Shown here piece after piece: positions 19,564-38,347 of a DNA stretch of 64,000 nt. The stretch is from Prochlorococcus sp. AG-670-N10 (GTDB lineage Bacteria > Cyanobacteriota > Cyanobacteriia > PCC-6307 > Cyanobiaceae). A model generated the notes under the pieces. That model worked only from the letters and a program-made list of their open reading frames with translations. It was not told the origin of the DNA and made no database searches. The position numbers and the translations under genes were made by a program. The stretch covers positions 1-64,000 of the forward strand of contig QCSX01000006.1 in NCBI GenBank assembly GCA_003209065.1. The letters run 5' to 3'. Numbering within the stretch: position 1 is the stretch's first letter; every line of letters starts with the position of its first letter.

Positions 19564-20929
19564 TAATTTATTAAGAGCTCCAAACCAAAGTATTGAAGAA
19601 ACTGGTTATGCCTGGTATGTAGGCAATGCTAGATTAATCAATTTATCTGGACGTTTATTAGGAGCTCACATTGCTCACTCTGGACTTATTGTCTTTTGGG
19701 CGGGAGCAATGATGCTCTTTGAGGTTAATCATTTTACTTTTGATAAACCTATGTGGGAGCAAGGTTTAATCTGTATGCCACACGTTGCAATGTTTGGTTA
19801 TGGTATTGGACCAGGTGGTGAAGTTACAGACATCATGCCTTTCTTTCAAGCAGGTGTGGTACATCTAATAGCTTCAGCGGTTCTTGGTTTTGGTGGGATT
19901 TACCACTCATTAGCTGGTCCTGAAAAACTTGAAGAAGATTTTCCTTTTTTCTCCACTGATTGGAGAGATAAAAATCAAATGACCAATATTCTTGGCTATC
20001 ATTTGATTGTTTTAGGTGTAGGTGCATTAGCATGGTCAGTAAACTGGTGTTTTATTGGTGGTGCTTATGACACTTGGGCTCCAGGAGGAGGAGAAGTAAG
20101 ATTAGTTAATCCAACACTTGATCCAAGAGTTATTCTTGGTTACCTATTCAGATCTCCTTGGGGTGGCGCTGGTTCAATAATCGGAGTTAACTCAATTGAA
20201 GATATAGTTGGTGGTCATGTCTATGTGGGAGTAACTGCAATAATTGGAGGTATATTCCACATCTTTACCAAACCTTTTGGATGGGCTAGACGCGCATTTA
20301 TTTGGAACGGAGAAGGTCTTCTAAGTTATGCACTAGGGGGAATATGTGTTGCTAGTTTTATTGCTTCTACTTTCATCTGGTTCAATAACACAGCATATCC
20401 TTCAGAATTCTATGGACCAACCAATGCTGAAGCTTCACAAGCACAAAGCTTTACTTTCCTAGTGAGAGATCAAAGAATTGGTGCTAATGTCGGTTCAACA
20501 ATGGGACCAACAGGATTAGGAAAGTATCTCATGAGATCTCCTACTGGTGAAATTATATTTGGTGGTGAAACAATGAGATTTTGGGACTTTAGAGGTCCAT
20601 GGTTAGAGCCTTTAAGAGGACCTAACGGTTTGAGCCTTGAGAAAATCCAAAATGATATTCAGCCTTGGCAAGTAAGAAGAGCAGCTGAATATATGACTCA
20701 TGCTCCTAATGCTTCTATCAACTCTGTTGGAGGTATTATTACTGAGCCTAACGCTGTTAACTTTGTTAACTTAAGACAATGGTTAGCTGCAGCTCAATTC
20801 TTCCTAGGATGGTTTACATTCATCGGTCACCTTTGGCATGCAGGACGTGCTAGAGCAGCCGCTGCCGGTTTCGAAAAAGGAATCGACAGAAAGAGTGAAC
20901 CAGCACTTGAATTGCCTGATATTGATTAA
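19547..20929 (+). CDS. psbC: Photosystem II CP43 chlorophyll protein
   Basis: Inner antenna protein CP43, 460 residues from the GTG at 19547. I chose this start because GAGGAGG lies 10 bases upstream inside psbD and the protein then begins METPFNN; the ATG at 19520 would add residues foreign to the family. Six helices with chlorophyll-ligand histidines are visible ([56 protein letters not shown]). The large lumenal loop carries [20 protein letters not shown] near the Mn cluster. It is followed by a strong terminator. Confidence 0.98.
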
Positions 20930-27376: not shown

Positions 27377-27409
27377 AAAAAAAAGACCCCTATTTCTAGG
27401 GGTCTTTTT
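27377..27409 (-). terminator. Strong 12-bp terminator hairpin
   Basis: AAAAGACCCCTA pairs perfectly with TAGGGGTCTTTT around a four-base loop, flanked by A-rich sequence left and T right, so it can end transcripts from either side. On the minus strand it directly follows the Yfr2-like element. Confidence 0.9.
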
Positions 27410-27512
27410 CTGGTTTTACCGAATCAAGTGTTTCCTTGTTTCCACTGTTTCAGTAAAGCCTCTCCTACACACACATACAAGTTATCACACATATTTCCTT
27501 TTCGTGGAAGGG
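27377..27512 (-). ncRNA. Candidate small RNA, Yfr2-like loop
   Basis: Read on the minus strand, AGTG and CACT (27446-27427) enclose a loop containing GAAACAAGGAAA, that is, two GGAAACA-type repeats. A perfect 12-bp terminator with a long U-tract follows about 20 bases later. I recall GGAAACA as the conserved loop element of the cyanobacterial Yfr2 RNA family; this recall is not checked. A 16-bp palindrome that could hold the promoter lies just upstream (27515-27530). No protein frame explains the region. Confidence 0.5.
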
Positions 27513-27514
27513 CG

Positions 27515-27530
27515 TAAGTAATATTACTTA
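27515..27530. promoter_or_regulatory. Perfect 16-bp palindrome TAAGTAATATTACTTA
   Basis: A perfect inverted repeat of 16 bases in the spacer upstream of the Yfr2-like candidate. It includes TATTAC/TAATAT stretches that could serve as a -10 element on the minus strand. It could be an operator or simply a promoter with chance symmetry. Confidence 0.45.
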
Positions 27531-27570
27531 AATGTCACATATGCAAGTTATGCATTTCTGGATATATGGC

Positions 27571-27660
27571 AATAAAAAACACCCTAATTTAGAGAAAAGG
27601 GTGTTTGATTATCAGAAATTAGTGTGTGAGGAGTTTCTGATTTATATAATTTACTGGAAT
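27571..27660 (-). ncRNA. Candidate small RNA with Yfr1 motif
   Basis: On the minus strand ATCAGAAA (27641-27634) and TTTCTGAT (27618-27611) form a stem. The sequence between them includes the 11-mer ACTCCTCACAC (27634-27624), the conserved unpaired core of cyanobacterial Yfr1. A terminator follows: AAACACCCT/AGGGTGTTT (27606-27577) with a U-run. Classical Yfr1 sits next to guaB/trxA and has the motif between two hairpins rather than in a loop, so this would be a variant or second copy. It could also be the 3' end of the upstream gene's mRNA. Confidence 0.55.
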
Positions 27661-27689
27661 AAGGGAACAAATATCTACAGTATTAATTC

Positions 27690-27884
27690 CTATTTCTTTT
27701 CCCAAAATAGGTAAAGATTTGAAAACTGGTTTTTAGTGTCTACGATTGCGGTGCTCGTTGAAATCAATTTCCATCCAGAAGCATTCCTTTTTTTGATTAT
27801 TGCTGCAATTTCATTCTCTTGTCTTTGAGTATTAGCATTGCCTACTGCGTAATAGATATCAAGATCATTTTCTACATGTAACAT
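27690..27884 (-). CDS. Small DUF4177-like protein
   Basis: A 64-residue protein with the pattern NEIAAIIKKRNASGWKLISTS followed by NLYLFWEKK. This resembles the DUF4177 fold (helix, GW-x-L strand, final aromatic strand), a widespread small family of unknown function. It lies upstream of the Yfr1-like element on the same strand, about 30-50 bases before its stem. No good Shine-Dalgarno sequence was seen. Moderate confidence. Confidence 0.5.
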   Translation of the reverse strand: MLHVENDLDIYYAVGNANTQRQENEIAAIIKKRNASGWKLISTSTAIVDTKNQFSNLYLFWEKK

Positions 27885-37288: not shown

Positions 37289-38347
37289 CTAATTTTGTGT
37301 AATTTTTGTATTTTCAATATTATCAAATGCTTGGCCAATTTTCTTAAAGTCGAATCCCATAGCTCTTAATGCATGCCATAAATGACCTTGTAAGAAAAAG
37401 AAACCCAAATAGAAGTGAGTATTGGCAAGCCATGCTCTCGAACTATATGCTCCCGAACCTAAATCAACAGTATCAGTAAAATAAGGAGCAAATTCGAATT
37501 GAAGCTTTAATGGTTCCCCATAAAGATCAACTGGATAAATAGTAGTATTTGAAGCACACCAGAATGCAGCAACAAAAGCCATATAAGAAACACCAACTAC
37601 TGAATAAGAAAGAATTGCCTCGGCACCAAGTAACCCTTTACCTTTGAATTCTGTATATTCTCCAAATTGTTTTGTACAAATATGGAAAACCCCTCCAATG
37701 ATAGTTAAGAATGCCACAAATGCATGCCCACCCATAATATCTTCTAAACTATCAATTTTAAGAAAATCGAATTGATGATTCCAAATAGCAGCAATATCTA
37801 AATTATAAATTACTTGTCTTGTTGAACCTATCGCTGGATCATAAATACCATGAATACGAGCCCATTCAACAAACATAATTGCTCCAAGACCTAAAAAGAT
37901 TAGATGATGACCAAGTATAAATGTCAATTTATCTGGATCATCCCACTCGAAATCAAATTTTTGTGGCTTACTATTTTCTGGATAGTCTCCAAGATCACCT
38001 GAAAATTTATTGGAATGCAATAGCCCCCCAGCTCCTAACACTGCTGAGAAAATAAGATGTAATGTGCAAATTACAACAATTCCATATGGTTCTGTAATGA
38101 CCCCGTTTTCAATTCCCCCAATTCCAATACCCGCCAGGTGAGGTAAAACAATTGCTTTCTGAGCGCCCATAGGAATACTGGTGTCGTAACGAGCTAACTC
38201 AAATAATCCAAAAGCCCCTGCCCAGAACATCATTAATCCTGCATGAGCAGCATGAGCAGCTATGAATTTACCTGAACGGCCAACAACACCAGAATTTCCT
38301 GCGTACCAGTCATAGGTAACATCAGATTTTCCGTAGTTTTGTAACAC
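37289..38347 (-). CDS. pcb: Divinyl chlorophyll a/b-binding antenna protein Pcb
   Basis: Six-helix antenna protein of the CP43/IsiA superfamily, 352 residues, without the large lumenal loop of CP43. Visible are GKFIAAHAAHAGLMMFWAGAFGLFE, TFILGHHLIFLGLGAIMFVEWARIHGIYD, MGGHAFVAFLTIIGGVFHICTKQFG and FFFLQGHLWHALRAMGFDFKK, with the chlorophyll-ligand histidines. It serves as the main or an accessory light-harvesting antenna around the photosystems. It follows flavodoxin on the same strand with a gap of about 140 bases, the arrangement I associate with iron-stress-induced antennae. Confidence 0.96.
   Translation of the reverse strand: MLQNYGKSDVTYDWYAGNSGVVGRSGKFIAAHAAHAGLMMFWAGAFGLFELARYDTSIPMGAQKAIVLPHLAGIGIGGIENGVITEPYGIVVICTLHLIFSAVLGAGGLLHSNKFSGDLGDYPENSKPQKFDFEWDDPDKLTFILGHHLIFLGLGAIMFVEWARIHGIYDPAIGSTRQVIYNLDIAAIWNHQFDFLKIDSLEDIMGGHAFVAFLTIIGGVFHICTKQFGEYTEFKGKGLLGAEAILSYSVVGVSYMAFVAAFWCASNTTIYPVDLYGEPLKLQFEFAPYFTDTVDLGSGAYSSRAWLANTHFYLGFFFLQGHLWHALRAMGFDFKKIGQAFDNIENTKITQN

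Follow-up and report, generated by a model that had tools for sequence, protein, structure and literature searches.

The closest described systems come from strain MED4, in which Yfr10 was reported as a 78-nt RNA with an 11-mer motif and a 270-nt precursor; the same 11-mer also occurs in Yfr1 and Yfr18 and, in altered form, in Yfr12, and a possible pairing with Yfr2-type RNAs was pointed out (PMC2518516). The motif forms the loop of a hairpin in Yfr10 and lies between two hairpins in Yfr1, high-light strains have Yfr10 homologs upstream of their Yfr2 homologs, and the level of Yfr10 rises in darkness (PMC6778093). In MED4, Yfr2 binds both Yfr10 and Yfr1 and thereby blocks their binding to ppa mRNA, and the binding of Yfr10 to Yfr2 bears on RNase E, against which bound Yfr2 is protected (PMC6778093).

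We show here that the motif-bearing RNA of the window, meaning the whole 64,000-nt stretch of Prochlorococcus sp. AG-670-N10 DNA that was analysed, is Yfr10; the motif is real, and the RNA is one already known from descriptions in 2008 and 2019. Using cmscan with Rfam release 15, RF02362 (Yfr10; gathering cut-off 43 bits) is matched at all 78 of its 78 positions with 101.5 bits and an E value of 2.2e-15. A motif scan allowing up to one mismatch finds ACTCCTCACAC as the sole match in the window, where 0.34 such matches are expected from shuffled windows. The sequence-only reading had described an exact 11-mer on the minus strand, set in a loop closed by an 8-bp stem, with a U-run terminator after it, and this description holds throughout: the stem arms are ATCAGAAA (27641-27634) and TTTCTGAT (27618-27611), and the terminator hairpin proper spans 27606-27577, its U-run ending near 27573. 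The interval given in that reading, 27571-27660, covers most of the RNA but is shifted, so that the 3' tail is slightly missed. Four marks of a Yfr10 member are found together, namely the RF02362 score, the motif in a 5' stem loop, the Rho-independent terminator and a Yfr2-type gene downstream. Upstream lies a small ORF with no Pfam family above cut-off, and nucleotide alignment finds DNA resembling this region 5' of yfr10 in several relatives. The coordinates are collected in the table.

Table. Features of the Yfr10 locus (window coordinates) and phage RNA loci (coordinates within the viral stretches named)
Feature	Position	Strand	Basis
Yfr10 small RNA, 78 nt (RF02362)	27564..27641	-	cmscan; MED4 ortholog at published coordinates
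Yfr1/Yfr10 core motif ACTCCTCACAC	27624..27634	-	Prochlorococcus form ACTCCTCACACAC reaches 27622
8-bp stem-loop displaying the motif	27611..27641	-	Rfam structure line; MFE fold
Yfr10 intrinsic terminator hairpin and U-run	27573..27606	-	sequence; Rfam structure line; MFE fold
-10 element TAAATT (-12..-7)	27648..27653	-	TANNNT at that position in 109/130 loci
Conserved upstream box TAGGAATTAATACTGTAG (-51..-34)	27675..27692	-	candidate activator site; AGTA-N5-TACT dyad in most relatives
Small ORF, 64 aa, 5' of yfr10	27690..27884	-	same strand as yfr10; nucleotide alignment with relatives
Cyano-1/Yfr2-type small RNA (RF01701), Yfr10 partner	27407..27476	-	63.8 bits, cut-off 41
Anti-motif GTGTGTGTAGGAG at Yfr2-type 5' end	27462..27474	-	RNAduplex, 12 bp with Yfr10 loop
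Terminator GACCCC/GGGGTC and U-run of Yfr2-type RNA	27377..27404	-	sequence
Phage RNA, L159	85-212	+	
Phage RNA, L167	8190-8345	-	
Phage RNA, L314	2535-2667	-	
Phage RNA, L334	3495-3625	-	
Phage RNA, L331	1785-1920	-	
Phage RNA, L327	from 10 upstream	-	

Two other readings of the motif can be weighed against this assignment. The motif is single and short, as would be expected if the 11-mer had arisen by chance in an intergenic hairpin of AT-rich DNA; this reading has practically no probability left, being refuted by the full-length covariance match and by conservation, since covariance search of 266 genomes of the genus finds a Yfr10 match above cut-off in 215. The judgement from sequence alone that a chance match was unlikely is thus borne out. 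A second copy of Yfr1 proper would likewise carry the exact 11-mer, and indeed the 13-nt motif ACTCCTCACACAC is identical in Yfr1 (RF01116) and the window Yfr10. In Yfr1, however, two hairpins flank a single-stranded motif and the gene lies by guaB/trxA, whereas in the window it sits in a hairpin loop at a locus adjoining the 64-aa ORF and the Yfr2-type RNA. The genome contains two exact copies of the 11-mer, one in the window Yfr10 and the other on contig 17, where RF01116 is matched with 58 bits between guaB and trxA (both names assigned by reading the translated sequences), in line with the neighbourhood given for Yfr1 in the sequence-only reading. Running the Rfam Yfr1 model, as that reading had suggested, gives no cmscan match to RF01116 anywhere in the window, the match being the one on contig 17 instead. 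The structure of the window RNA and the position of the true Yfr1 therefore refute a second Yfr1 copy, which we regard as very improbable. The sequence-only reading was right in proposing a further RNA that carries the Yfr1 core motif, in another architecture and away from guaB-trxA; the RNA it offered as a possible Yfr1 analogue is not an unrecognised one, being already named and curated as Yfr10 (RF02362).

Above cut-off, this draft genome has one Yfr1, one Yfr10 and one Yfr2-type RNA, while MED4 has several, and it may thus represent a minimal version of the Yfr1/Yfr10/Yfr2 network, bearing in mind that further copies could be missing because the genome is about 92% complete. Elsewhere in the window, Rfam IsrR matches occur at 19961-20144 (minus strand) and 37774-37945 (plus strand), antisense to two photosystem II (PF00421) genes; these matches probably stem from the homology of the two genes to isiA and not from IsrR RNAs.

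The orthology of the window RNA with MED4 Yfr10 can be established by position. In one genome (G033), RF02362 is matched at 346661-346738, exactly the position published for Yfr10 of MED4 (PMC2518516), which identifies this genome as MED4 and the window RNA as the ortholog of its Yfr10. The two RNAs have in common the 78-nt length, the stem, the loop motif and the type of terminator (RF02362; PMC2518516, PMC6778093), and in both a Yfr2-type RNA follows in the same order and on the same strand. They differ by a few substitutions in the linker, the terminator loop and the 3' tail, and the window copy has the 64-aa ORF directly upstream whereas MED4 has another neighbour. Among near-complete genomes of the genus, 84 of 87 have a Yfr10 match at E <= 0.001. 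In the 130 best-scoring Yfr10 loci from relatives, which are not a random sample, the 13-mer is identical in 97. The stem shows few two-sided changes, a C-G to T-A replacement at the third pair being seen in 2 of 45 distinct 31-mers, although this ungapped count includes some sequences out of register and is not a strong test.

What the sequence-only reading called an orphan cassette is a conserved pair of small RNAs, the neighbour of Yfr10 being an RNA of the Yfr2 type that can bind the motif. This partner lies about 90 nt downstream, starts with ATGTGTGTGTAGGAG, contains the GUGGAAACAAGGAAACAC core of the Cyano-1/Yfr2 family (RF01701) and is the sole match to that family above cut-off in the genome. 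It is an RNA distinct from Yfr10, with a 5' end complementary to the Yfr10 loop. RNAduplex predicts 12 bp at -19.6 kcal/mol for the segments taken in isolation, with no penalty for opening their structures; CUCCU pairs with AGGAG and CACACAC with GUGUGUG, and a single U of the partner is bulged out. Measured from the Yfr10 start through the partner's U-run, the pair spans about 265 nt, near the size of the 270-nt MED4 precursor (PMC2518516). In 129 of the 130 Yfr10 loci the partner follows directly downstream, on the same strand and with little variation in spacing, which widens the published statement on high-light strains to many more genomes; the only solo Yfr10 (L067:412-488, minus strand) runs into a protein-coding gene, with no Cyano-1 match at that locus even at E up to 1. 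For the window locus itself, these results add little more than confirmation that it holds a known RNA pair. A conserved near-palindrome at 27530-27552 (minus strand), which lies upstream of the Yfr2-type RNA and reads AACTGGCACATGTGACAGTT in relatives, is possibly CGRE1, the GntR site defined upstream of yfr2.

One may ask whether Yfr10 serves chiefly to sequester Yfr2-type RNA, as a decoy that shields Yfr1, and has few direct mRNA targets of its own. The strong computed pairing with the adjacent RNA and the near-universal linkage speak for this idea, which the sequence-only reading had also entertained. Against it, 253 mRNAs are enriched with Yfr10 in MED4 and two thirds of its targets are not common to Yfr1, its binding to ppa has been footprinted, and Yfr2 blocks Yfr1 and Yfr10 alike (PMC6778093). 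Nor do the neighbours coevolve: binding between Yfr10 loop and anti-motif is no stronger for cognate than for shuffled partners (p 0.27). We therefore consider the decoy role unlikely. In 28 loci having a partner the 11-mer is altered, and yet the anti-motif is still recognisable in 27 of the 28 partners. Together with the lack of coevolution, this indicates that the neighbouring Yfr10 alone does not hold the Yfr2 end; the anti-motif is probably kept by Yfr1 or other targets, and Yfr1 may be its main constraint.

Taking the first base of the 78-nt Yfr10 as +1, yfr10 would be transcribed from its own promoter, consisting of the conserved -10 element and an upstream box. The consensus of this box is TAGTAATTAATACTgTAG, and among the 92 upstream sequences scoring at least 13 of 17, it starts at -51 in 85. 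A score of at least 14 is reached by 87 of 122 distinct upstream sequences and by 4 of 2440 shuffles, none of which goes higher, and at least 15 by 82 of the 122 versus none of the 2440 shuffles, the counts being inflated by kinship among the genomes. Conservation is lower in the sequence flanking the box, and an extended 24-mer of it (up to three mismatches) is unique to yfr10 both in this genome and in MED4. According to PMC6778093 the regulator of yfr10 is unknown; the dyad, conserved across the genus, is a candidate site at which such a protein could bind, and the box offers a concrete starting point for finding it. Upstream of MED4 Yfr12 (L040:270-300), a dyad AGTG..CACT replaces AGTA..TACT, a symmetric change.

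Based on sequence, structure match, orthology, linkage and complementarity, we are all but certain that the locus encodes Yfr10, a 78-nt trans-acting sRNA, together with its Yfr2-type partner; it would be served by its own promoter and act much as in MED4. What is said of its expression and targets, and of titration and RNase E protection, is carried over from that strain. By this analogy, the Yfr10 stem loop would display CUCCUCACAC for base-pairing with mRNAs bearing the complement, as shown in MED4, and the 5' end of the Yfr2-type RNA, with its complement GUGUGUGUAGGAG, would bind and titrate Yfr10 and Yfr1 so that their targets are freed. The Yfr2-type RNA bound by Yfr10 or Yfr1 would presumably be protected from RNase E, as in MED4, and readthrough from yfr10 into the Yfr2-type gene is probable, as the 270-nt MED4 precursor suggests.

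An RNA with the same motif, apparently undescribed, is found in phages. Scanning viral contigs for AAACTCCTCACACAC gave 47 stretches, in two of which, both from one lineage, a convincing terminator follows the motif, and wider searches brought the total to six contigs; in most other viral contigs with this 15-mer, nothing terminator-like follows or the context is different. The complete layout is present in five of the six, consisting of TATACT, which could be a -10 element, a 5' hairpin, some 30-40 nt that are mostly unpaired, the motif, a further hairpin and a U-run, such that a hairpin stands on each side of the motif as in Yfr1; the sixth contig (3300020428) ends just after the motif. The 5' hairpin is GTAGGT..ACCTAC in three contigs, with variants in two others. 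The 11-mer is exact in 3300025132, 3300030450, 3300006749 and 3300030098; 3300020457 and 3300020428 have TCTCCTCACAC, which differs from it at one position. Both hairpins of 3300030098 are changed, and their arms are still complementary (GTAGGG/CCCTAC and GGGATTC/GAATCCC) around the unchanged 11-mer; these hairpins were read directly from the sequences, the alignment row being misplaced. When two of the contigs are compared, identity is 91-99% over a block of about 300 bases that includes the RNA, compared with 78-94% in the adjacent ardC and about 70% in the remaining intergenic stretch. The name Yfr1 is not warranted for the phage RNA, since RF01116, the Yfr1 covariance model, finds no match in L159 or L167 even at E up to 1. 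Sequenced phages gave only unrelated weak matches to a Yfr10-Yfr2 tandem, and the literature on cyanophage and Yfr1, judged by title and abstract, yielded no report of the phage RNA.

The phages form a cyanopodovirus clade that has an anti-restriction gene and a tRNA-Leu and whose terminase shares 81% identity with that of Synechococcus phage S-SRP02. A 335-aa protein occupies the place of the annotated site-specific integrase of S-SRP02. In the examined stretch of S-SRP02 itself, the RNA is absent. In a genome of the window's family, a tRNA-Leu matches the phage copy with 98% identity across 93 bases and is flanked by a 40-aa integrase-like remnant, which supports, without proving, marine picocyanobacterial hosts. 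We tentatively suggest, at somewhat less than even chances, that during infection or lysogeny the cyanopodovirus RNA enters the Yfr1/Yfr10-Yfr2 network by binding Yfr2-type RNAs of the host or targets of Yfr1. If it works as its sequence suggests, phages would manipulate a post-transcriptional network that is central to the most abundant photosynthetic cells. In another phage, S37-C6 (L310:19136-19146, plus strand), CCTCCTCACAC followed by a terminator lies between capsid and tail genes, an occurrence that may be due to chance.
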